Under the pieces are notes generated by a model that was not told where the DNA came from, did no database searches, and saw nothing but the letters and a program-made list of their open reading frames with translations. The position numbers and the translations under genes were made by a program. Of a stretch of 64,000 nt of DNA, positions 6,928 through 18,801 are shown one piece after another. How positions within the stretch are numbered: the first letter of the stretch is position 1; every line of letters begins with the position of its first letter. This DNA is from Halalkalicoccus jeotgali B3 (GTDB taxonomy: Archaea; Halobacteriota; Halobacteria; Halobacteriales; Halalkalicoccaceae), in contig NC_014297.1 in the NCBI RefSeq assembly GCF_000196895.1, positions 744,001 through 808,000 on the forward strand. The letters run 5' to 3'.

Positions 6928-8181
6928 CTATCGCCCGAACACGGGGTCCGTTTCGAGACCCCGGTCGACCACGCATACCCCCTCGAGCGCTTCGAGGGCA
7001 TCGAGAACAGCCCGGAGGTGCTCGGGAGAGCTGCCCTCGATCCCCACCTCCACCACCTTCCGGTTCGGATCGTCGCCCGGCGCCCGCCGTCCCGTCCGGA
7101 CGTCAGCCAGTTTCACGCCGTCCTCGGCCACGCGTTTCGCGATCGTCCCGATCCGAGTGCGGTCTTCGACAGCGAGCCGAGGGGTCGCGTACCGGCCGAG
7201 CTCGATCAACCCCTGGCGGACGAGGTCGGCGTGATCGCTCAGGTCGGCGTTACCCCCCGAAAGCACGACCGCGACGTCCTCGTCCTCGAACTCGGCCGCC
7301 CCCGACAGCAGCGCGGCCAGCGGCGCTGCACCCGCCGGCTCGACGACCGTCTTCGCCCGCTCGGCCAGCAGCGCCACCGCGGCCGCGATCCCCGAATCCG
7401 AGACAGTCACCACGCCGTCGACCCGCCCGCGCATCGTCTCGAAGGTGGTCTCGAGGAGTCGGGTGTCGGCGATCCCGTCGGCGACGGTGTCGACGGTCTC
7501 GCGCTCGTAGATCTCATTGTTTTCGAGCGACCGACCCGCGTGGGCCGCGCCCTCTGGCTGGACGCCGAGCACCCGGATGTCGCGGTCCTGGGCCTTCAGC
7601 GCGGTCGCGATCCCGCCGATCAGTCCGCCCCCGCTGATCGCCACCAGCACGGTATCGAGTTCGGGGTACTGCTCGAACAGTTCGAGTCCCACGGTACCTT
7701 GCCCGGCGATGACGCGCTCGTCGTCGAAGGGGTGGACGAACTCCAGATCCTCGCGTTCGGCCAGATCGAGTGCGTGTTCGTAGGAGCGCTCGTAGATGTC
7801 GCCCTCGACGACCACTTCGGCGCCGTAGCCCCGAGTCGCGGCGATCTTCGAGGCGGGCGTGATCTCCGGGACGACGATCGTCGCCTCGATCCCCAGCAGG
7901 TCGCCCGCGAGCGCCACCCCCTGGGCGTGATTGCCCGCGCTCGCCGCGATCACGCCCCGCTCGCGCTGGGCCTCGGCGAGTTGGGCCATACAGTTGTACG
8001 CCCCACGGATCTTGAACGAGCCCGTCCGCTGGGTGTTTTCGAGTTTCGATCCCACTGAGCGCGCCCCGCTCATCTCCGCGAACGTCGTCGAGCGATCCAG
8101 TGGCGTCCGGTGGACGATCTCCGCGAGTCGGTCACGGGCGGCTTCGACGTCCGCGATCGAAACCGGGGTCTCGGCCGTCAT
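6928..8181 (-). CDS. Threonine ammonia-lyase / serine-threonine dehydratase family, with C-terminal ACT-like domain
   Basis: 417 residues from MTAETPVSIADVEAARDRL at 8181. The frame is open upstream to 8307, but that part has no family similarity and runs into the regulatory region. It is a fold-type II PLP enzyme with the Schiff-base lysine in RTGSFKIRGAYN, a phosphate-binding loop SGGGLIGGIA, and a C-terminal regulatory-type segment (about residues 335-417). The usual reaction is deamination of threonine to 2-oxobutanoate. It is divergent from a diaminobutyrate-type aminotransferase across a 201-bp region with two copies of the cluster's dyad. Because EutB of hydroxyectoine catabolism is a homologue of this enzyme, a role in hydroxyectoine dehydration is possible, though EutB proteins usually lack the ACT part as far as I recall. 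Confidence 0.88.
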   Translation of the reverse strand: MTAETPVSIADVEAARDRLAEIVHRTPLDRSTTFAEMSGARSVGSKLENTQRTGSFKIRGAYNCMAQLAEAQRERGVIAASAGNHAQGVALAGDLLGIEATIVVPEITPASKIAATRGYGAEVVVEGDIYERSYEHALDLAEREDLEFVHPFDDERVIAGQGTVGLELFEQYPELDTVLVAISGGGLIGGIATALKAQDRDIRVLGVQPEGAAHAGRSLENNEIYERETVDTVADGIADTRLLETTFETMRGRVDGVVTVSDSGIAAAVALLAERAKTVVEPAGAAPLAALLSGAAEFEDEDVAVVLSGGNADLSDHADLVRQGLIELGRYATPRLAVEDRTRIGTIAKRVAEDGVKLADVRTGRRAPGDDPNRKVVEVGIEGSSPEHLRAVLDALEALEGVCVVDRGLETDPVFGR

Positions 8182-8247
8182 CCGGCCCCTCCGGTCGTCG
8201 TGTCTCTCCCTGTCATACTGGTGCATGCGCCGCCCGGCACTTAACTG

Positions 8248-8265
8248 TACACAGGGACCGTTGAC
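8248..8265 (+). promoter_or_regulatory. Cluster dyad copy 1 (lyase side)
   Basis: TACACAGGGACCGTTGAC, 67 bp upstream of the lyase start. It differs at only three positions from the copy at 13658. It is flanked by a perfect 7-bp inverted repeat, ACTGTAC (8244-8250) and GTACAGT (8271-8277). Confidence 0.55.
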
Positions 8266-8308
8266 TTCGGGTACAGTCGCGTGGGTGGTCGCGGCGATGC
8301 AGGCCACT

Positions 8309-8326
8309 GGTGTCGAATACTGTGTA
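8309..8326 (-). promoter_or_regulatory. Cluster dyad copy 2 (aminotransferase side)
   Basis: On the minus strand this reads TACACAG-N4-CG, a weaker match to the same 18-bp element, 57 bp before the ATG at 8383. With copy 1 it frames the divergent promoter region. Confidence 0.4.
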
Positions 8327-8382
8327 CGGTACTTTCGGTAACCGTTGAAAAGCTATTTACTGGCGCTGTTCATTGGTGTCGT

Positions 8383-9753
8383 ATGGCAGGACCACCGATC
8401 GAGGAGATCCATTTCGAGGACGCACCCGATGTCGGGGCGGTGCCGGGCCCGGAGTCCACGCGGCTGGTCGAAAAGCAACGGGAAATCGACAGCAGTGCCG
8501 TCGCCTACCCCAACAACATCCCGTTGGCGTTCGAGGAGGGCAAGGGCGCGACGCTCCGGGACGCCGATGGCAACACCTTCATCGACCTGTTCGGGGGCAT
8601 CGGCGTGCTCAACGTCGGCCATTCCAACCCCTACGTGATGGAGGCGGTCCACGAGCAGGCCGACAGGATCGTTCATACGGTGGACTTCCCGAGCGAGGCA
8701 CGCCTCGAACTCATCGAGAAGCTCGACGAGATCGCGCCGGGTGAGCTCGCGGGCGACAACCGGGTGATCTTCGGCGGCCCGACCGGCAGCGATGCGATCG
8801 AGGCCGCCATCAAACTCGCGAAGTACAACACCGGCGGCACCGGCCTGATCGCCTTTCGGGGCGCCTATCACGGCCCCACCAGCGGCCCGATGAGTTTGAC
8901 GTCGAACAAGAAGTTCAAGGGCCACTACACGCCCTTGCTCCCGGACGTCGTCCACGCACCCTATCCGTACCCCTTCAGACAGGGCAAAACCGAGGACGAG
9001 GCCGTCAAGGACGCCCTCGAAGAAGTGCGCGCGATCGTCGAGGACCCCTACGGCGGGCTTGCGAACCCGGCGGGAATTTTCGCCGAGCCGATCCAGGGCG
9101 AGGGCGGGGTCGTCGTCCCGCCCGAGGGATTCCTCGAAGGGCTGCGCGAGATCGCCGACGACAACGCCCTCCCTCTAGTGTTCGATGAGATCCAATCCGG
9201 ACTGGGTCGCTCGGGCGAGTGGTTCGCCTGCGAGCACTACGACGTGACCCCCGACGCGATGACGATGGCGAAGGCCCTCGGTGGCGTTGGCTTCCCCCTC
9301 TCGGCGACGATGTACCGCGAGGAGCTCGACACCTGGGGGCCGGGCGATCACGCCGGCACCTATCGTGGGCACGTCGTCGCGATGCGCGCGGGCACGCGGG
9401 CCATCGAGTACATCCAGGCCCACGACCTGCTGGCCCACGCCCGCGAACTCGGCGAGTACCTTCGCGCCCGCCTCCGCGAGGCCGGCGAGGAAAACGAGCT
9501 GCTGGCCGAAGTACGGGGGAAGGGCCTGTTCATCGGCGCGGAGTTCGCCGAGGACGGTGAGCCTGTCGACGAGACGGTCGACGAAATCCAGCGCTACTGC
9601 TACGAACACGGCGTGCTGGTCTGGACCGCCGGACGCCACGGCAGCATCCTTCGCCTGCTCCCGCCGCTCGTGCTCACCGACGAACTCGCCGAAACCGCGA
9701 TGGACGTGGTTTGTGAGGCGATCGAACACGCGACCCCCGTGCGATCTGCCTGA
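8383..9753 (+). CDS. Class III aminotransferase, diaminobutyrate transaminase-like (DoeD/EctB type)
   Basis: 456 residues from [16 protein letters not shown]. It is a fold-type I PLP enzyme with cofactor-pocket block [26 protein letters not shown] and the Schiff-base lysine in [15 protein letters not shown]. The [14 protein letters not shown] segment resembles the TFRG block of diaminobutyrate and EctB-type transaminases more than GABA transaminases. In this neighbourhood the likely job is converting L-2,4-diaminobutyrate to aspartate semialdehyde after ectoine opening (a DoeD role). Substrate assignment is inference. The upstream in-frame extension to 8281 overlaps the regulatory dyads, so 8383 is preferred. 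Confidence 0.85.
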
Positions 9754-9804
9754 CGAACCCCAGATTTCGACGGTCGTTTCCCTTTCGCTCCTTTCGGGAA
9801 CTAG

Positions 9805-9821
9805 TACACGTAATATGTGTG
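9805..9821 (+). promoter_or_regulatory. Cluster dyad copy 3
   Basis: TACACG-TAATA-TGTGTG: half-sites with the same 5-bp spacing as the perfect copy at 11670. It is 88 bp before the small leader ORF and 204 bp before the transporter start. Confidence 0.5.
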
Positions 9822-9892
9822 TGCTATCTACAATAAGCGGAACCGTTATTACCGTCCTCAGCGATTGTGAATGATGGGTGACAGCACATACC

Positions 9893-10006
9893 ATGACTGG
9901 AGTTAGTGATCGTCCCGTAACCGGCGGGGATGCCGTGCGTGACCGCATCGCCCTCGATCGCTCGTTCGAACGCGAGGGGCGACTCGGTTCTGAGGGAGGG
10001 ACCTGA
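9893..10006 (+). CDS. 37-residue ORF just upstream of the BCCT transporter
   Basis: ATG at 9893 gives MTGVSDRPVTGGDAVRDRIA and ends GRLGSEGGT, stopping two bases before the GTG of the transporter. A purine-rich GGAGGGA near its 3' end could serve as the ribosome-binding site for the transporter, so translation may be coupled. It has no membrane segment or known motif. It could be a true small protein, a regulatory leader peptide or chance. Confidence 0.4.
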   Translation: MTGVSDRPVTGGDAVRDRIALDRSFEREGRLGSEGGT

Positions 10007-10008
10007 CC

Positions 10009-11637
10009 GTGGCCGACGACGACCTCGGGGCGGTCGGACGCTTCCGCGAGGAGATCGATCCGGTGGTCTTCCTCTTCGGTGCCGGACTGACTGTGGGAAT
10101 CATCGCGACGTTCTTCGCGAGTCCGGGCACCGTCGAGGGAGCCATCGCCTACCTGAATCAGGGGATGCTTCAGTACCTGAACTGGGCGTTGCTCGTGATC
10201 GTCTTCCTGATCGTCCTCTTTCTGATCTTCCTGATCGTCGGCCCGTGGGGAAAGATCAAGTTCGGTGACGAACCACCGGAATACAGCTTCATATCGTTTT
10301 TCACGATGCTCTATTCGGCGGGGTTCGCCGCCGGCGTGGTGTTCTGGGGACCGACCGAGGCGCTGTTTTACTACGCCAACCCCTCGCCGCTGTTCGACGT
10401 CTCGGGCGGGTCGGCCGCGGCGATGACCATCGCTATCCAACAGACGCTCTTTCACTGGGCGCTCCCCCAACTCGCGGTCTTCACCATCATGGGGCTCGCG
10501 ATCGGCTACTTCACGTACAACTACGAGAACGTCCCCCTCCGGGTCTCCTCGGCGCTCACGCCGATCCTCGGTGCCGACAACCTCGACGGACCGGTCGCGA
10601 AGGTCATCGACATTCTCGCGGTGTTCGCCACCATCGGTGGCGTCGCGACGTCGCTGGGGTTCATCGGGAGTCAGTTCATCAGCGGGCTGAGCTTCCAGTG
10701 GGGAATCGACCTCGGCAATGCCGGCATCCTGCTGGTGGTGACGACCATGACGCTGCTGTTTACCATCTCGATGGTACTGGGTGTCGACAAGGGGATCCGG
10801 CGACTCTCGAACTTCAACATGATCCTCTTCGTTGCCCTCATGGTCGCGACCTTCATCATCGGTCCGTCGATCTTCCTGGTGCTTCTGGGTACGCAGGCGG
10901 TCGGGGGGATGCTTACCGACTTCGTCTCGATGAGCCTCTTTACCGGTGCGGGCGTCGAAGGCGGTACGGAGTGGGTCAACTCGTGGACCGTCTTCTACTG
11001 GGCGTGGGCGCTCTCGTGGTCGCCTTTCGCCGGCGTGTTCATCGCGCGGATCTCGAAGGGACGAACCGTGAGGGAGGTCGCCTTCACCGGCATCGCCGCG
11101 ACCTCCGCGGCGACCATCCCGTGGTTCACCTTTGTCGGCGGTACGGCGGTCTGGGCCCAGCACAACGGTGTCGCTGACTTCAGCGCCGTGATCGCCGGCG
11201 AGGCCGGCCCGGAGGTCTCGGGGTTCATCCTGTTCGACGCGTTCCCGCTCGGAACCGTCTTCATGGTCTCCTTTATGGTCCTCGTGACGACCTTCTTCAT
11301 CACCTCCGCCGACTCCTCGACGCTCGCCGTCTCGATGATGACCACCGGCGGCAAAGCCCAGCCCTCGAACATCAACCGGATCTTCTGGGGCGTCGTCCTC
11401 GGGATGACCGCGGCGATCCTCATGATCATCGGCGGTATCGAGGCGCTCCAGTCGGCGGCGATCATCACGGGCGCACCGTTCGCGTTCGTCTGTTTCCTCG
11501 CCTTGCTCGGGCTTGCAAAGGACTTCAGTGCGACCCATGGCCGCGTGATCCTACAGGACGGCGCGTGGATCATCGGCTCCGGTCCCGATCGCTCGAAGCC
11601 GGCGGACACACCGTCCGCCGCCAACGACGACGACTGA
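10009..11637 (+). CDS. BCCT-family transporter (betaine/ectoine-type compatible solute uptake)
   Basis: 542 residues from GTG, with 12 predicted TM helices. It has the family block WALSWSPFAGVFIARISKGRT (the Trp-rich TM8 region, about residue 330) and an N-terminal PEYSFISFFTMLYSAGF segment. The Gly-rich TM3 stretch, which in Na+-coupled betaine carriers reads GMGIG, here is AGFAAGVVFWG, so substrate or coupling ion may differ. The family imports glycine betaine, choline, carnitine and ectoines. Sitting among ectoine-catabolic genes, it most likely brings in the substrate; this is inference. The C-terminal tail is short and hydrophilic, without the long osmosensing domain of BetP. Confidence 0.9.
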   Translation: MADDDLGAVGRFREEIDPVVFLFGAGLTVGIIATFFASPGTVEGAIAYLNQGMLQYLNWALLVIVFLIVLFLIFLIVGPWGKIKFGDEPPEYSFISFFTMLYSAGFAAGVVFWGPTEALFYYANPSPLFDVSGGSAAAMTIAIQQTLFHWALPQLAVFTIMGLAIGYFTYNYENVPLRVSSALTPILGADNLDGPVAKVIDILAVFATIGGVATSLGFIGSQFISGLSFQWGIDLGNAGILLVVTTMTLLFTISMVLGVDKGIRRLSNFNMILFVALMVATFIIGPSIFLVLLGTQAVGGMLTDFVSMSLFTGAGVEGGTEWVNSWTVFYWAWALSWSPFAGVFIARISKGRTVREVAFTGIAATSAATIPWFTFVGGTAVWAQHNGVADFSAVIAGEAGPEVSGFILFDAFPLGTVFMVSFMVLVTTFFITSADSSTLAVSMMTTGGKAQPSNINRIFWGVVLGMTAAILMIIGGIEALQSAAIITGAPFAFVCFLALLGLAKDFSATHGRVILQDGAWIIGSGPDRSKPADTPSAANDDD

Positions 11638-11669
11638 GCGGCTCGATTCGGAACCGTTTTCCGACGCCG

Positions 11670-11686
11670 TACACAATTTTTGTGTA
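11670..11686 (+). promoter_or_regulatory. Cluster dyad copy 4 (perfect palindrome at a start codon)
   Basis: TACACA-ATTTT-TGTGTA, a perfect 6-bp dyad whose last base is the A of the ATG at 11686. A protein bound here would cover the start of a leaderless transcript. Confidence 0.6.
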
Positions 11687-12345
11687 TGGGTGATGAGAAC
11701 GAAACTACCGGGAGCGAGTCAGCCGTCGATCCCGCGTTCGATCCCGACCGCGATCGGGGTGTACTGACCCCGAGCGACCGGGAGTTCCTGCTCGGGCGCA
11801 AGACCGACTACACCGATCACTCGAAAAAGCAGAAGCGAAACCGGATCCGCCGGCGGGTTCGCAACGCGATCCTCGATTTCACGATCCTCTTCGAGTACCT
11901 CGACGAGCGCGACCGCGAGACGGTCTTCGACCCCGAAAACGAGGAGTGTGACGCCTACACGCGCGGGATCACCGACACGCTCGCCTTCCTCCATCTGGGG
12001 ACGATGGGCTACTCGACGCCGTTCAAAGACATGCTCGCCCGCGGCGTCTCGAAGGGCGAGCAGGAACTGGCGGGTTCGGACTACCGGATGGTCAACGTCG
12101 AGTTCAACGTCGACCCCGTCGGCCGGATCGACGTCGACGAGGTCGTCGAGAAGCTCGATCGGGGTGCCTTCGAGGAGATCACCGACGAGGAGCTTCGTGC
12201 GTTCGTCCGCCTGCTGGCCGAAAGCGAGGACTTCTCGCCCGGACCGCTGCGCGAGGAGATCAAGGGCCAGATGGATCACTTCGCCGAGCGGGCCGCCGAG
12301 GCCGCGACCCGGCGCGACAGACAGATCGGCGAGTTGACCGACTAG
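11686..12345 (+). CDS. Conserved haloarchaeal protein of unknown function
   Basis: 219 residues from ATG at 11686 (MGDENETTGSESAVDP); a TTG two codons upstream is less likely. The body is largely helical and charged, with a basic block HSKKQKRNRIRRRVRN (about residues 46-61) amid an acidic protein, which suggests nucleic acid or partner binding. There are no membrane segments or metal motifs. It starts directly on a perfect copy of the cluster dyad, so it may belong to the same regulon, and its end overlaps the convergent M20 gene by 4 bp. Function unknown. Confidence 0.75.
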   Translation: MGDENETTGSESAVDPAFDPDRDRGVLTPSDREFLLGRKTDYTDHSKKQKRNRIRRRVRNAILDFTILFEYLDERDRETVFDPENEECDAYTRGITDTLAFLHLGTMGYSTPFKDMLARGVSKGEQELAGSDYRMVNVEFNVDPVGRIDVDEVVEKLDRGAFEEITDEELRAFVRLLAESEDFSPGPLREEIKGQMDHFAERAAEAATRRDRQIGELTD

Positions 12346-13622
12346 GGACGCTCCTTTCGGATCCGCTCGATCGACTCGGTCAGTACGTCCACGGCGATCC
12401 CCAGACTGCGCTCGTCGACGTCGAAGTGGGGTGTGTGGTGGCTGTCGGGGTGGTCCGTCCCGACGATGGCGTAGGTGGCCAGCCCGCCCGCCTCCTGGAC
12501 CGCCTGCATGAGGAACGTCGCGTCCTCGCTCGCGCCGAACTCCGCCGTCCCGACCGGCCGATTGACGCCCTCGACCCCGCGTGCGACTTCCTGGACCAGT
12601 GTCGCGAGTTCGGGGTCGCTGTCGGCACGCGGGGACTCGCTGTGGATCGCCACGTCGGCCCCACAGCCGTGCATCTCGGCGGCCGAGGTGCAGATCCGCT
12701 CGAAACGCCCCTTCATCGACTCCATCAGCCGAGTCGTCTCGCCGCGTACCTCCGCGGTGATCCTCGCGTCCTCCGCGATCACGTTGCTCGCGGTGCCGGC
12801 CTCGACCCGGCCGACGTTCACCCGCGTCATCCCCTCGCTGTGACGGGGAATCGCGTAGGCCTCGCTCACCGCGCTCGCCATCGCCTGGATCGCGTTGGCC
12901 CCCTTCTCGGGCGCTTGGCCCGCATGGGAGGACTCGCCCTCGAACGCGACGTTCATGTGGCTCATCGCCAGTGGTTTCTCCATGCCTGCGACGACTTCCC
13001 CCGTGGGGTGGTCCAGTCCGACGTGGACACACAGCAGGTACTCGATCCCCTTGGCGTAGGGTCCCTCGGCCATCGGCCGGCCGCCGCCGCCCTCCTCCTC
13101 GGCGGGCTGGAAGAAGACGGTGAACGTCCCCGAGAAGTCGCTCTCGGCGACGGCTTCCAGTACCGCGAGCCCGACCGTCATGTGGGCGTCGTGCCCGCAG
13201 GCGTGCATTAGTCCCTCATGTTCGGAGCGAAACCCCTCGCGTGCGGGACGGTGACTCTCGTCCGGGGCCTCCTCGACGAACAAGCCGTCGATGTCGACGC
13301 GCAACCCGATCGAGGGCCCCTCCCCCCGGTCGAGCACGGCCACACAACCCGTGTAGCCCCCCTCACAGGCGTCGAGGACGTCCTCACGTGCGCCCCGCTT
13401 GCGGGCGCGCTCGAACCACGGCGCCAGCTCCTCGTCGCTCGGTACCGCCATCCGTTCGTCGGGGGCCATCGCCTCCCGTCCCACCGCGAGTTCGTCCACT
13501 TCCACCTCCTCGATCGCCTCGACCAGCAGGCTCGTCGTGTAGAACTCCCGCCACGCCGGTTCGGGGTATCGGTGGAACGACCGCCGGCGCTCGCTCAGCC
13601 CCTCGTGCATCGTCCGTGACAT
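12342..13622 (-). CDS. M20 amidohydrolase, AbgA-like (p-aminobenzoyl-glutamate hydrolase subunit A family)
   Basis: 426 residues. Family blocks are RRRSFHRYPEPAWREF, an AbgA-type insertion (RMAVPSDEEL, ERARKRGA, EGGYTGCVAVLD), metal motif MHACGHDAHMT, and FFQPAEEEGGGGRPM. These give two metal-binding His/Asp/Glu sets expected of a zinc or manganese amidase acting in the cytosol. AbgA cleaves p-aminobenzoyl-glutamate, but related M20 enzymes deacylate N-acyl amino acids. Here, beside an ectoine hydrolase and without a canonical DoeB, it may deacetylate N-acetyl-2,4-diaminobutyrate (I recall an M20 enzyme called DoeB2 for this step). It is divergent from the dehydrogenase at 13728 over a dyad copy. 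A start at the second Met (13610) is possible. Confidence 0.88.
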   Translation of the reverse strand: MSRTMHEGLSERRRSFHRYPEPAWREFYTTSLLVEAIEEVEVDELAVGREAMAPDERMAVPSDEELAPWFERARKRGAREDVLDACEGGYTGCVAVLDRGEGPSIGLRVDIDGLFVEEAPDESHRPAREGFRSEHEGLMHACGHDAHMTVGLAVLEAVAESDFSGTFTVFFQPAEEEGGGGRPMAEGPYAKGIEYLLCVHVGLDHPTGEVVAGMEKPLAMSHMNVAFEGESSHAGQAPEKGANAIQAMASAVSEAYAIPRHSEGMTRVNVGRVEAGTASNVIAEDARITAEVRGETTRLMESMKGRFERICTSAAEMHGCGADVAIHSESPRADSDPELATLVQEVARGVEGVNRPVGTAEFGASEDATFLMQAVQEAGGLATYAIVGTDHPDSHHTPHFDVDERSLGIAVDVLTESIERIRKERP

Positions 13623-13657
13623 TCTCTCACGAACTCGTCGCCCCAGTCACTTAAAAA

Positions 13658-13675
13658 TACACAGAAACCGTAGAC
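13658..13675 (+). promoter_or_regulatory. Cluster dyad copy 5
   Basis: TACACAGAAACCGTAGAC lies in the divergent gap between the M20 hydrolase (36 bp away) and the dehydrogenase (53 bp away). It matches copies 1 and 7 at 15 of 18 positions each. Confidence 0.6.
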
Positions 13676-13727
13676 AGCGAACACGAAGACTTTAGCGCCG
13701 TGCGCCCGATCGAGTGGAGTGATACCT

Positions 13728-14696
13728 ATGACCGAGGAACGACCCGACGTAGTGGTGTTACGCGAGGGAACCGAGGGGCTCTCGACCGAACCATATGCCG
13801 AGGAACTGCGCGAGCGACTGCCCGAGTACGAGGTTCGACGCGCTCGGACGCCGAGCGAGGAGCGCGACCTGATCGAGGGTGCCCGGGTCGCCACGGGGGT
13901 TCGCATCGACGAGGAACTCCTGTCTCACGCAACCGATCTCGAACTGTTCGCGTGTGCCTTCGCGGGCACCGAGCACCTCCCGACCGAGGCGCTGCGCGAG
14001 CGGGGGATAGCGCTGACCAACGCCGGCGGGATCCACGCCCCGGGGCTCGCGGAGGGCGTTCTCGGCAACATGCTCGTGTTCGCCCGCCGGCTCCACGAGG
14101 GCTGGCGACGAAAGGAGAACAGGGAGTGGCGCCACTTCCAGTCGGGCGAACTCACCGGGAGCACTGTCACGATCGTCGGCCTCGGCTCCATCGGGGAGGC
14201 GCTCACCCAACGATTAGAGGGCATGGAGGTCGAGACCATCGGGGTACGCTACTCGCCGGAGAAGGGCGGACCGACCGACGAGGTGATCGGGTTCGACGAG
14301 GCGGCACTCCACGACGCGCTCGCCCGGACCGACTATCTGGTGATCGCCTGCCCGCTGACCGACACCACGAGAGGACTGATCGGCGAGGACGAGTTCGCCA
14401 CCCTGCCGCCCGAGGCGGTCCTGATCAACACCGCCCGCGGGCCGATCGTCGAGACCGACGCCCTGGTGGGCGCGATCCAGACGAACTCGATTCGGGGGGC
14501 GGCACTGGACGTGACCGACCCCGAACCCCTGCCGCCCGACCACGTCCTGTGGGGGTTCGAGAACGTTCTGATAACCCCGCATACGGGCGGGCACACCCCC
14601 AAACACTGGGATCGACTCGCAGAAATCGTCGCCGGAAACGTCGCGGCGCTCGATTCCGGTGGCGACCTCGAGAACCTCGTGTTTGCGCCGGAGTGA
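13728..14696 (+). CDS. D-2-hydroxyacid dehydrogenase, NAD(P)-dependent
   Basis: 322 residues from ATG at 13728, preceded by a Shine-Dalgarno-like GGAGTGAT; a GTG three codons upstream is the alternative. The Rossmann motif is TVTIVGLGSIGEALTQ (about residue 140). Catalytic Arg is in NTARGPIVE, Glu in DVTDPEPLP, and His in TPHTGGHT, all expected for reversible 2-oxoacid reduction. The exact substrate cannot be read from sequence. Its place between the M20 hydrolase and the malate:quinone oxidoreductase-like gene suggests handling a 2-oxo or 2-hydroxy acid in the same pathway. It ends one base before the convergent flavoprotein. Confidence 0.88.
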   Translation: MTEERPDVVVLREGTEGLSTEPYAEELRERLPEYEVRRARTPSEERDLIEGARVATGVRIDEELLSHATDLELFACAFAGTEHLPTEALRERGIALTNAGGIHAPGLAEGVLGNMLVFARRLHEGWRRKENREWRHFQSGELTGSTVTIVGLGSIGEALTQRLEGMEVETIGVRYSPEKGGPTDEVIGFDEAALHDALARTDYLVIACPLTDTTRGLIGEDEFATLPPEAVLINTARGPIVETDALVGAIQTNSIRGAALDVTDPEPLPPDHVLWGFENVLITPHTGGHTPKHWDRLAEIVAGNVAALDSGGDLENLVFAPE

Positions 14697-16058
14697 TCAG
14701 TCGTCGGCGGCGATCGGTCGCTCCTCGCGGGGGAAGTTCCCGATCGTCGCCTCGCGGAACGCCTCCTCGTCGAACTCGAACGCGCCGTTCAGGAATTCGA
14801 GGACCTGTTCGGTGTCGCGCATGGCGTTTTTCAGGCACGTCGAGGCCCCCGGCGAGGGCGTGATGTTGAAGATGATGTCCTCGCCGGTGATCTTGGCCTC
14901 GCCCATGTCGAGGGTCTTTCCGTCCGTATCGACGATCTGCGGGCGAACGCCGCCGTAGCCCTTCGCGCGCTCGATATCGTCGAGTCCGACGCTCGGCACC
15001 ACCTTCTGGACGTGCGGCAGGAACGAGCGTTTTCCGACCTCGGGGACGTCGTAGACCAGGTTCTTGAGGACGTACGGCAACAGGACCCGATCGGCGAGCA
15101 CGTTTCCGTAGCTCAAAAACGAGTCGGCGTTCAGACCGAAGACGTCGAGGAAGTCCTCGACGGTCGAGATCCGCCCCCGTTCGAGTTCGGGCACCAGCTT
15201 TGCGGTCGGCCCGAAGCGCGTGATCGAGTCGTCGTGGACGTCCGCGTCGCCGTGGATCGCGGCGAAGGGGAGTTTCTGCATCTGGAGGGTATACACCTTG
15301 CCGTTGAGCAGGTCGTCCGCGAGGAAGAAACTCCCCGCGACGGGCAATAGGGACATGTCCTCGCCGTAGCCCATCTCCTTTGCGACCTGCAGGCTGTGTG
15401 AGCCCGCGGCGACGACCGTCGCGTCGGCCTCGAACCAGCCCGCCTCGCTCTCGACGATGAAGCCGTCGTCGGTCTCGTCGAGGCGCTTTACCTCGCTGTC
15501 GGTGTAGACGTCGACGCCGGCCTCCTTGCGGGCCGCCTCGACGAACGATTTTGCGGTCTCACCGTAGTCGACGACGTAGCCGTCGGGCGTCTGGAGGGCG
15601 TATAGCTCGGTGTCGGGATCCCGCCCGTCGACGACGTTGGGCTCGATTTCGGCGATCTCCTCGCGGTCGATGGGCCGGAGCTTCGGGTACAGATCGGCAA
15701 AGCCTTCCTCGGTGTAGCGCCGCCGTAGCTCGTCGGCCTCCTCTTTCCCGACCGCCAGCACCATCTTGCTTCGCTTGCTGTGGAACTCCCTGTCGGGATC
15801 CTCCCGTTCGAGGTAACCCGCCAGCAGCTGGGCGCCCTCGTTTACCTCTTCGGCCTTCTCCCGGGTGTAGTTGGTCTCGATGTCCCCGAAGTGAAGCGTC
15901 TGGGAGTTGTTCGTGTGGTGGGAGTTGATCGAGGCGATCTCCGCTTCTTTCTCCAGGAGCGCCACTCGCTCGATGTCGGTGAACTTCGATACAGTATAGA
16001 GCAGTGCTGCGCCACTGATCCCTCCGCCGACGATGACGAGGTCGTATTTTTCTACCAT
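14697..16058 (-). CDS. FAD-dependent malate:quinone oxidoreductase-like protein
   Basis: 453 residues from MVEKYDLVIVGGGISGAAL (ATG at 16058). It has an N-terminal dinucleotide fold GGGISG, an acidic ribose-binding block LLEKEAEIASINSHHTNNS, and a C-terminal ITPSPGASTCLKNA similar to the SPGAS block of Mqo. It lacks a signal peptide and would be a peripheral membrane enzyme passing electrons to quinone. If it oxidises malate to oxaloacetate, it would drain aspartate- or fumarate-derived carbon from ectoine breakdown into the TCA cycle; L-2-hydroxyglutarate oxidase-like activity is an alternative. No clear copy of the cluster dyad lies upstream. It is downstream of the doeA homologue in the same direction (138-bp gap). 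Confidence 0.8.
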   Translation of the reverse strand: MVEKYDLVIVGGGISGAALLYTVSKFTDIERVALLEKEAEIASINSHHTNNSQTLHFGDIETNYTREKAEEVNEGAQLLAGYLEREDPDREFHSKRSKMVLAVGKEEADELRRRYTEEGFADLYPKLRPIDREEIAEIEPNVVDGRDPDTELYALQTPDGYVVDYGETAKSFVEAARKEAGVDVYTDSEVKRLDETDDGFIVESEAGWFEADATVVAAGSHSLQVAKEMGYGEDMSLLPVAGSFFLADDLLNGKVYTLQMQKLPFAAIHGDADVHDDSITRFGPTAKLVPELERGRISTVEDFLDVFGLNADSFLSYGNVLADRVLLPYVLKNLVYDVPEVGKRSFLPHVQKVVPSVGLDDIERAKGYGGVRPQIVDTDGKTLDMGEAKITGEDIIFNITPSPGASTCLKNAMRDTEQVLEFLNGAFEFDEEAFREATIGNFPREERPIAADD

Positions 16059-16196
16059 AGTTGAAAACCTTGCTGCGACGGCCGCTCTCACTCTCACGTC
16101 GGGTGTCGGGTACTTTTCTATGTCGGTATCGGTCGGTAGAAACGTTATCACGCCCCAATCGGCCGGATCGACGGCGCGTCTCGGGGCGCGGGACGA

Positions 16197-17390
16197 TCAG
16201 ACTGAAAAGACCTTCTGGGGGAACGAGGAGAACCGTTCGGCGCCGTTCGCGGTCACGCGAAACGACTCGCTGATCTCGACGCCCAGTTCGTCCGTCCAGA
16301 TCCCCGGGATCATGTGGAAGGTCATGTTCTCCTCCAAGACGGTTTCATCACCCGGTCGGATGCTCGCGGTGTGCTCGCCCCAGTCCGGCGGATACCCGAG
16401 CCCCATCGAGTAGCCGATCCTGTCTTCCTTCTCGATGCCGTGTTTCGCGATCGACTCGCGCCACGCCCGCTCGACGGCCTCGCAGGTCACGCCCGGTTCG
16501 GCCGTATCGAGCGCCGCGTTCAGCCCCTCGACGACGACGTCCGCGACCCGCCCCATCTCCTCGGGAACATCGCCGATCACGGCGGTTCGCGCAAGCGGCG
16601 AGTGATACCGGTGGCGACAGCCCGCGAGTTCGACGATCACGGGATCCCCATCCGAGAAGGGTTCGTCCGACCACGTGAGATGGGGCGTCCCCGTGTGCTC
16701 GCCCGAGGGCATCAGCGGGACGATCGCGGGGTAGTCGCCCCCGAACTCGCCGGTTCCCTCGATCAGGGTGCGGTAGATCTCGCTTGCGACTCGTGATTCG
16801 GGAACGCCCTCGCCCATTGCGTCGATTCCGGCCTGCATCGCCGCCTCCGAGAGGCGAGTGGCCTCCTCGATCAGTTCGATCTCCCGCTTTGACTTCCTGA
16901 TACGGACCCACCCCACCAGCAGGGTCGAATCGGAGAACGTCGCCTCGGGAAGGCGCTCCTGGAGGCGCTGGTGGGATTTGGCGGTGTAGTACGAGGCGTC
17001 CATCTCGACGCCGATGTGGGTGTCGTCCCACCCCATCTCCTCTATGACCCGCGCAACGAAGTCCATCGGGTGTTTGTCCACGGGCGAGTGGACGTGATCG
17101 TCGCTGTAGGCGCGTAGGTTCTTGTGATCGATCCAGACGGTCGCCTTCGCGCCGTTTTTGTCCATTCCGCGGCCGATCCAGACGGGCTGGTCGTGATCCA
17201 ATGAGACCACGAGTCCCTGATGGACGTAAAAGGACCACCCGTCGTAGCCCGAGAGGTAGTTCATGTTCGCGGGGTCGGTCACGAACAGCGTCTCGATCCC
17301 CGCCTCCCGCATGCGCTCTTTGGTCCGGTCAATCCGCCGTTCGTACTCCGCTTGTTCGAACACCTGCACGGTAATCACTGACAAGACCAT
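16197..17390 (-). CDS. doeA: Ectoine hydrolase (DoeA/EutD family, M24 pita-bread fold)
   Basis: 397 residues from ATG at 17390 (MVLSVITVQVFEQAEY), the same length as bacterial DoeA; the open frame to 17918 is not used. The fold is that of Xaa-Pro peptidases, but the metal site is dismantled: the usual first Asp is replaced in VIVELAGC and the second in YHSPLARTA. This is a hallmark of ectoine hydrolase. Further DoeA-like blocks are SGYDGWSFYVHQ (about residue 50), PHLTWSDEPF, YPPDWGEHTASIRPGD and MTFHMIPGIW. DoeA opens the ectoine ring to N-acetyl-2,4-diaminobutyrate in the cytosol. It follows the aminotransferase at 17441 in the same direction and precedes the flavoprotein. Confidence 0.88.
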   Translation of the reverse strand: MVLSVITVQVFEQAEYERRIDRTKERMREAGIETLFVTDPANMNYLSGYDGWSFYVHQGLVVSLDHDQPVWIGRGMDKNGAKATVWIDHKNLRAYSDDHVHSPVDKHPMDFVARVIEEMGWDDTHIGVEMDASYYTAKSHQRLQERLPEATFSDSTLLVGWVRIRKSKREIELIEEATRLSEAAMQAGIDAMGEGVPESRVASEIYRTLIEGTGEFGGDYPAIVPLMPSGEHTGTPHLTWSDEPFSDGDPVIVELAGCRHRYHSPLARTAVIGDVPEEMGRVADVVVEGLNAALDTAEPGVTCEAVERAWRESIAKHGIEKEDRIGYSMGLGYPPDWGEHTASIRPGDETVLEENMTFHMIPGIWTDELGVEISESFRVTANGAERFSSFPQKVFSV

Positions 17391-17404
17391 CCTCTCGGGC
17401 GCGG

Positions 17405-17422
17405 GACTTATGTTTTCGTGTA
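17405..17422 (-). promoter_or_regulatory. Cluster dyad copy 6 (half-site) upstream of doeA
   Basis: On the minus strand TACACG-AAAAC-ATAAGT: one half-site is conserved, the other weak. It lies 15-32 bp before the doeA start at 17390. Support is weaker than for copies 1, 4, 5 and 7. Confidence 0.35.
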
Positions 17423-17440
17423 TCCCGAAAACGAAAGTCG

Positions 17441-18784
17441 TTATCGAGTCGCCTCGATCGCGTCGCGAAACAGCGAGATACCGAGGTCGATCTCGCGTTC
17501 GGTGACGTCGAGCGGCGGGAGCAGTCGGATCGTGCTGTGGCCACAACCCAGCGTGAGCAGCCCCCGCTGTAACCCTGCCTTTACGACCGCGGTACGGCGT
17601 TCTTTCGAGTCGAACTCGACGGCGAGCATCAACCCCTTCCCGCGGACGTCCGTCACCCCTTCGAGGTCGGCGTCGCCGAGCAGTTCTTTCACTTGCCGGC
17701 CCCGCTCGACGGCGTTCTCTAACAGGTCGTACTCGTCGATCGCGTCGAGGGTGAACACGCCTTGGGCCGCCGCGACGAGATCGCCACCGCCCCATGTCGA
17801 GCCGAGTCGGTTTTTTTCCTCGGGGAATATCTCGGAGCGCGAGATCGTCGCGCCCGACCGGAGCGCCTTCGCGCTGGTGATCACGTCGGGTTCGATGGCG
17901 TAGTGGTCCGACGCCCACATCTCCCCCGTGCGCCCGATCCCCGACTGGATCTCGTCGACGATCAGGTGGATGTCGTGGGTCTCACAGACCCGCTGGACCT
18001 CCTCCATAAACGCCTCGCTCGGGAAGCGATACCCGCCGACGCCCTGGATCGGTTCGAGGATCAGGAAGGCGACCTCCCGCGGGTCCATATAGCCCCGCTC
18101 GGGGTCGAGCATTCGTTCGAGCTGCGAGCGTCCGCCGGCGAAAAAGCCACACGAACAGGTCGATGCCTCACAGGCCCGATCCTCGCAGAACGGAACGGTT
18201 CGAGTGCCGGCGGTTTCGGGATAGGCACGCGTATAGACGTCGCCGGCGCGCGTCATCGAGAGCGTTCCCAGCGTCCGGCCGTGAAACGCCCCCAGAAAGG
18301 TGATGCCGTACTTTCGCTCGGGAGTGTTCGCGTAGGAGATCTTCATCGCGTTCTCGATCGCCTCCGCGCCCGAGTTCGAGAGGAAAACGGTGTCCATGTC
18401 GTACTGCGAGGACACCTCGACGAGCCGTTCCATCAATTGGGCCGCCCCCGGAATCTCGGGTTCTTCGGGCCCACCCGCCGAGCCGGCGTAGAAGTCCTGA
18501 CCGGCGATCTTCAGCGGGTCGACCAGATCGAACTCGGCCATGCGATCGGTGATCTTCGGGTTGTTGTAGCCAAGCGGTGCGGCCCCGATATGGCAGGTGA
18601 AATCCAGAAAGACGTTGCCGTCGAGGTCGGTACAGAACGGTCCCTCCGACTCCCCGGCGACGTCCCAGGCGAACTCGTGGGCGTGCTCGCTGGGCGCGGA
18701 GTAGCGGTGGTGGTGCTCGATCCACTCGCGGGTCCGCTCCCCGGGAAGCCGCCGCACGCTCGGCTCCGCGTTATCACGGTTCAT
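17441..18784 (-). CDS. Class III aminotransferase (archaeal aspartate/omega-amino-acid aminotransferase family)
   Basis: 447 residues from MNRDNAEPSVRRLPGE. PLP-enzyme blocks are SNSGAEAIENAMKI, FLGAFHGRTLG, DEIQSGIGRTG and the Schiff-base lysine in TSAKALRSGATI. An insertion with four closely spaced cysteines (CEDRACEASTCSC, about residues 200-212) is seen in this archaeal subgroup. It belongs to the broad GABA/ornithine/2,4-diaminobutyrate group but to a different branch from the gene at 8383. It starts exactly at a copy of the cluster dyad and is probably co-transcribed with doeA, so it may transaminate a diaminobutyrate-derived intermediate. The two aminotransferases could act on hydroxyectoine and ectoine products or on successive steps. 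Confidence 0.87.
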   Translation of the reverse strand: MNRDNAEPSVRRLPGERTREWIEHHHRYSAPSEHAHEFAWDVAGESEGPFCTDLDGNVFLDFTCHIGAAPLGYNNPKITDRMAEFDLVDPLKIAGQDFYAGSAGGPEEPEIPGAAQLMERLVEVSSQYDMDTVFLSNSGAEAIENAMKISYANTPERKYGITFLGAFHGRTLGTLSMTRAGDVYTRAYPETAGTRTVPFCEDRACEASTCSCGFFAGGRSQLERMLDPERGYMDPREVAFLILEPIQGVGGYRFPSEAFMEEVQRVCETHDIHLIVDEIQSGIGRTGEMWASDHYAIEPDVITSAKALRSGATISRSEIFPEEKNRLGSTWGGGDLVAAAQGVFTLDAIDEYDLLENAVERGRQVKELLGDADLEGVTDVRGKGLMLAVEFDSKERRTAVVKAGLQRGLLTLGCGHSTIRLLPPLDVTEREIDLGISLFRDAIEATR

Positions 18785-18801
18785 ACACGGAAAGCGTATA
18801 C
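18784..18801 (+). promoter_or_regulatory. Cluster dyad copy 7
   Basis: TACACGGAAAGCGTATAC overlaps the start codon of the minus-strand aminotransferase (cat at 18782-18784), the same geometry as copy 4. It matches copy 5 at 15 of 18 positions. Confidence 0.6.

Follow-up and report, generated by a model that had tools for sequence, protein, structure and literature searches.

The stretch of DNA analysed here (the window) comprises 64 kb, bases 744001-808000 of contig 1 in a 3.7-Mb haloarchaeal genome. By Pfam and NCBIfam annotation it contains a putative ectoine cluster that spans positions 6928-18784 (Table 1). The DoeA/EutD-like hydrolase found in it matched the model TIGR02993 with an E value of 3e-132 and 441 bits, below the curated cut-off of 613 bits, and hence ectoine is only the presumed substrate. 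Taken as a whole, its genes encode an ectoine-hydrolase-like pathway that includes a BCCT transporter. Passages of a 2026 survey (PMC13188858) also call the ectoine clusters of Halobacteria putative or provisional. Judging from the hydrolase, the nearest named relative is Halalkalicoccus paucihalophilus (87% identity). Recurring neighbour genes across the loci compared include those of a glutamate dehydrogenase-like protein, a FAD/FeS oxidase and an AOR-like protein. The LhgO-like oxidoreductase is found in Halalkalicoccus clusters; in many other genera a large FAD/FeS protein of the GlcD type stands in its place beside the hydroxyacid dehydrogenase gene (HDH), as in L045:13701-16919, and is possibly its functional replacement.

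Table 1. Genes of the putative ectoine cluster and palindromic sites at their promoters (window coordinates).
Feature	Position	Strand	Basis
PALP-family ammonia-lyase, EutB-like	6928-8181	-	PF00291; TIGR01127 above cut-off, EutB models below theirs
Candidate operator upstream of the eutB-like gene, beside TATA-like 8244-8240 (minus)	8248-8264		Conserved in 6 Halalkalicoccus genomes
Candidate amt1 operator, about -57 to -73 from inferred start	8310-8326		Genus conservation; score 9.9
Another weak amt1 copy at a distance of 22 bp, contains ACCGTT of 8341	8332-8348		Genus conservation; score 9.9
amt1, class III aminotransferase	8383-9753	+	PF00202
Candidate operator upstream of BCCT gene promoter	9805-9821		Genus conservation; other-family matrix
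BRE/TATA-like core promoter of BCCT gene, GGAACCGTTATTA (ACCGTT element)	9839-9851	+	Read from sequence; 20-30 nt before inferred start near 9871
BCCT transporter	10009-11637	+	PF02028
Perfect palindrome, candidate operator over start of 219-aa gene	11670-11686		Top match of window with either matrix; same position in other genera
219-aa protein, unannotated haloarchaeal family, candidate regulator	11686-12345	+	Co-occurrence, basic helix; no Pfam/NCBIfam match
M20 amidohydrolase, DoeB-like	12342-13622	-	Pfam/NCBIfam models
Candidate operator in divergent M20/HDH promoter region, abuts M20 TATA-like 13657-13651	13658-13674		Genus conservation; held-out and other-family matrices
D-2-hydroxyacid dehydrogenase (HDH)	13728-14696	+	Pfam/NCBIfam models
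FAD-dependent LhgO/Mqo-like oxidoreductase	14697-16058	-	Pfam/NCBIfam models
M24 family, DoeA/EutD-like ectoine hydrolase (putative)	16197-17390	-	TIGR02993
Proximal DoeA site; a single half-site is clear and runs into TATA-like sequence	17406-17422		Genus conservation; layout shared by other families
Distal DoeA site, 22 bp from proximal	17428-17444		Genus conservation; other-family matrix; 22-bp pair elsewhere
amt2, class III aminotransferase	17441-18784	-	PF00202
Candidate operator over amt2 start codon, between TATA-like 18812-18807 and start	18784-18800		Genus conservation; other-family matrix; fixed register

The palindrome and its register at the promoters

We have aligned the promoters of the cluster in Halalkalicoccus genomes; the comparison within the genus covered seven genomes, the source genome included. 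The alignment yielded a 17-bp palindrome with the consensus TAYACRG-NNN-CYGTRTA, and its sites are kept while the flanks diverge. It occurs at seven places in the 64-kb window, and at two of these it is accompanied, at a distance of 22 bp, by a weaker copy. The original prediction had described an 18-bp dyad recurring at the promoters of the cluster. The recurrence holds, but the symmetric unit is one base shorter. All the sequences listed then are present where they were placed, and the 15 matches in 18 positions reported between copies proved correct by direct comparison. Two weak copies that had been located at 8309 and 17405 are also real, with their coordinates shifted by one base to those of the amt1 and proximal DoeA sites in Table 1, and each has an additional weak copy 22 bp off. 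The weak sites (8248, 8310, 8332, 17406 and 17428) are supported by conservation and not by score. A further ACCGTT motif, proposed to recur at 8341, 9841 and 11651, was rejected as a regulatory element in its own right: at 9841 and 11651 it corresponds to the BRE/TATA region of the core promoter, 26-30 nt upstream of the inferred start, and at 8341 it is part of the weak tandem copy.

Two copies lie exactly on start codons, as had been noticed. That of the 219-aa gene has the A of the ATG (11686) as its last base, and in that of amt2 the A of the ATG (18784, minus strand) is the first. At amt2 the register was identical in 22 of 25 loci, with the centre of the site 8 nt from the start codon, and the layout at the 219-aa gene is the same in Halalkalicoccus, Haladaptatus, Halorussus, Halogranum and Halobacterium-like genomes. 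Both genes have a TATA-like sequence 28-30 nt before the start codon, and their promoters are therefore read as leaderless, with the palindrome located between TATA and start. In Haloferax volcanii 72% of the protein-coding transcripts are leaderless (PMC4983044). At the M20 and eutB genes the site adjoins the TATA. Upstream of DoeA two sites are spaced by 22 bp, an arrangement seen in 27 of 50 other loci and, as a weak pair, in the window; the weak 22-bp pair of amt1 is similar, and the BCCT gene of other genera shows a repeated 33-bp spacing upstream.

Specificity of the palindrome and its reading as an operator

A genome scan had been suggested as a check of whether strong matches are confined to the cluster. 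With this genome alone they are not: allowing up to one mismatch we found 41 places against 27 for a reversed control, and with a refined pattern seven against one, two of the seven being in the cluster. The specificity becomes visible only in the comparative data. Across the genus, all ten exact matches were at the cluster or, in one fragmented genome (G003), directly upstream of the 219-aa gene on another contig. Drawing on Halalkalicoccus alone, we built a matrix and applied it to the loci of other genera and families (score of at least 16, 300-bp upstream zones); it gave 130 matches in 40.2 kb of upstream zones and a single one in 310.1 kb of coding sequence of the clusters, while 60 column-permuted matrices on the same held-out loci gave a mean of 1.3 matches and a maximum of 20. 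With the converse matrix, derived from other haloarchaeal families only, four cluster sites were the top four of the whole window. The intergenic DNA of the cluster (875 bp) contained six matches scoring at least 9, the mean in shuffled sequences being 0.23. Finally, a strict pattern, TACACRNNWNNYGTGTA, was searched in 145 genomes; 31 of its matches belong to the cluster and 14 lie elsewhere, against five for the reversed control, membership in the cluster being our own judgement from the coordinates. The 31 sites were distributed over 27 of the 44 genomes that have the 219-aa gene.

Several copies overlap TATA sequences or start codons, and one conserved match of the genus outside the cluster turned out to be a TATA overlap at the IF-5A promoter, for which it was discarded as a further target. 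The palindromes might on these grounds be just sequence for basal transcription, at core promoters and start codons, or chance. We consider this very improbable: both half-sites are conserved, copies are found also at -50 to -75, sister genomes lack the sites at the same promoters with the TATA intact, and the permuted matrices and the coding control gave almost no matches.

The same palindrome, conserved across species, is thus found at several promoters of one pathway, the pattern of an operator regulon. Because the genes belong to an ectoine-hydrolase-like pathway, BCCT transporter included, the element most likely serves as operator for a dedicated regulator that responds to the substrate. 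From the sequence comparisons we estimate a probability of about 85% that it serves a single transcription regulator dedicated to the haloarchaeal regulon for ectoine/hydroxyectoine catabolism. A shared operator that acts in part by repression, at leaderless promoters, had been put forward from the outset; conservation and position support it well, repression being the presumed effect there, and the sites upstream may instead activate. In the haloarchaeal TrmB system, binding downstream of the TATA represses and binding upstream activates (PMC10817205; PMC4158304), and by analogy amt2 and the 219-aa gene would be repressed and bcct, amt1 and HDH possibly activated.

The regulator would bind the 17-bp palindrome, presumably as a dimer. 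On the leaderless promoters of amt2 and the 219-aa gene it would cover the region from about -16 to the start codon and block initiation. At M20, eutB and DoeA the site touches or overlaps the BRE/TATA, where the protein would obstruct TBP/TFB or contact TFB. The sites of amt1, bcct and HDH lie upstream of the core promoter, a location compatible with activation. The spacing of 22 bp in the pairs points to dimers that bind cooperatively on one face of the helix. A metabolite or intermediate of the pathway probably controls binding, by analogy with the bacterial regulator EnuR, whose ligand is N-alpha-ADABA (PMC5924519).

EnuR, a MocR/GabR protein of Proteobacteria, exerts substrate-linked control over hydrolase, deacetylase, aminotransferase and transporter genes (PMC5924519). 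The archaeal cluster has a similar catabolic gene set and, we presume, a substrate-linked regulator, but differs in its archaeal promoters, its BCCT transporter and the distribution of sites over many divergent promoters; no EnuR-like MocR/GabR protein was found among the cluster proteins with Pfam and NCBIfam. Putative ectoine clusters without EnuR, associated with PucR, appear also in Bacillota (PMC13188858); unlike these, the archaeal cluster has no protein with a PucR-family match. The passages of the 2026 survey consulted name no archaeal regulator, and we found no report in the literature that describes an operator or a regulator of ectoine catabolism in archaea. As far as we could find, a conserved dedicated operator with its regulon is new for this archaeal pathway, although of a familiar general kind. 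It provides a compact and testable definition of a regulon common to many haloarchaeal genera and supports the view of the scattered genes as a single pathway. It also draws attention to an unannotated protein family whose members may regulate transcription.

Candidates for the regulator

No product of the cluster genes matched a known HTH family in Pfam or NCBIfam, and no conserved HTH or other regulator-like gene was recognised among the recurring neighbours. The original prediction had the cluster without a regulator gene and so implied a distant one. The distance does not follow, since the 219-aa gene is a plausible local candidate. It was present at high identity in 44 of the 145 genomes, namely in 44 of the 50 with the DoeA hydrolase and in none of the other 95. 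An ordinary member of the regulon would also co-occur with the pathway in this way. In several families the start codon of this gene bears the best of the palindromes. Its product has a strongly conserved basic helix at about residues 38-62, with a charge of +9 in 25 residues in a protein of -19 overall, against at most +5 in the other cluster proteins. We regard as close to an even chance that the regulator is this protein, autoregulated and binding the palindrome through the basic helix. Against it stands the lack of any match to Pfam, NCBIfam, PHROG or PDB sequences, HTH or other DNA-binding families included. Two structure models (mean pLDDT of 72.7 and 82.9) were all-helical, and a fold search with both matched no known fold, which is not proof of a new one.

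The distribution of gene and sites bears on the same question. On the hydrolase tree the absence of the 219-aa gene requires five changes, and in three of them the sites are gone too (G106 with L018, G007-9, and G087 with G100); one site remains in the other two. Genome G101, which has the gene, carries at amt2 the site CACGATTTCTGTG flanked by TA. In G106 and G010, of the same genus and without the gene, both outer half-sites at amt2 are broken with the TATA region intact, and in Natronosalvus hydrolyticus (L018), like G106 a close relative of G101, the site is also broken in both halves and the TATA region kept. The sister genus G007-9 has neither gene nor sites, and the same applies to G087 and G100, a weak test because most of the cluster genes are missing near DoeA, which is found there together with the transporter only. 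The clusters of G007-9, G106 and L018 imply that the sites are not essential to the pathway. By contrast, G049 and G113 keep the amt2 site in the absence of the gene, for which nothing was detected even at an E value of 1e-5, making the joint loss suggestive and not strict. Where G101 has the 219-aa gene, G106 (L150:14100-14880) and L018 (15455-16200) share a short conserved ORF starting with MDETE, and no remnant of the 219-aa gene was recognisable at that position.

The retention of the site in G049 and G113 would be expected if a conventional regulator of the IclR, TrmB, Lrp/AsnC or GntR type were encoded elsewhere and the 219-aa protein were a mere member of the regulon. We consider this quite possible, somewhat short of even odds. 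The architecture resembles that of the haloarchaeal TrmB palindrome, TACT-N7-8-GAGTA (PMC4158304): both have an N7 spacer, and for TrmB the position of the site relative to the TATA decides between activation and repression (PMC4158304; PMC10817205). However, the half-sites here are TACAC/GTGTA (TAYAC/GTRTA) instead of TACT/GAGTA (PMC4158304), so that the palindrome is not the TrmB motif, and the TrmB regulon is global while these sites are concentrated in one catabolic cluster. Few strict sites are found off the cluster, none of those inspected marks a regulator gene, and a distant regulator by itself gives no reason for the joint loss of the sites and the 219-aa gene in different lineages.

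The 219-aa protein has paralogues in many haloarchaea (about 25-43% identity), which have in common with it an N-terminal RGxLTPxDRxFL...RIRxR...DF region (L123-L129, L168-L171, L182-L191); none of those scanned matched a Pfam family. We propose tentatively that the protein is the haloarchaeal ectoine regulator and also the first characterised member of a multi-paralogue DNA-binding family without a recognised HTH fold, in which case the paralogues would be uncharacterised regulators too. Genome G161 has, close to the 219-aa gene, a gene for an ABC transporter ATPase that is PotA-like (L156:6279-7361).

Two other places deserve mention. In Natrarchaeobius chitinivorans a strict copy (L138:1501-1517) is found just after a TATA-like sequence and before an apparent gene for an ABC-transporter solute-binding protein, opposite a permease gene, and is possibly an extra member of the regulon. 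In the source genome, overlapping palindromes of similar type, TATACGCTTACCGTATA and its neighbours, recur in a 13-bp register near PaaA/PaaC, acyl-CoA ligase and transporter genes (L097:10346-11558, equivalent to G000:C2:50345-51557), where perhaps a related regulator of phenylacetate catabolism binds.
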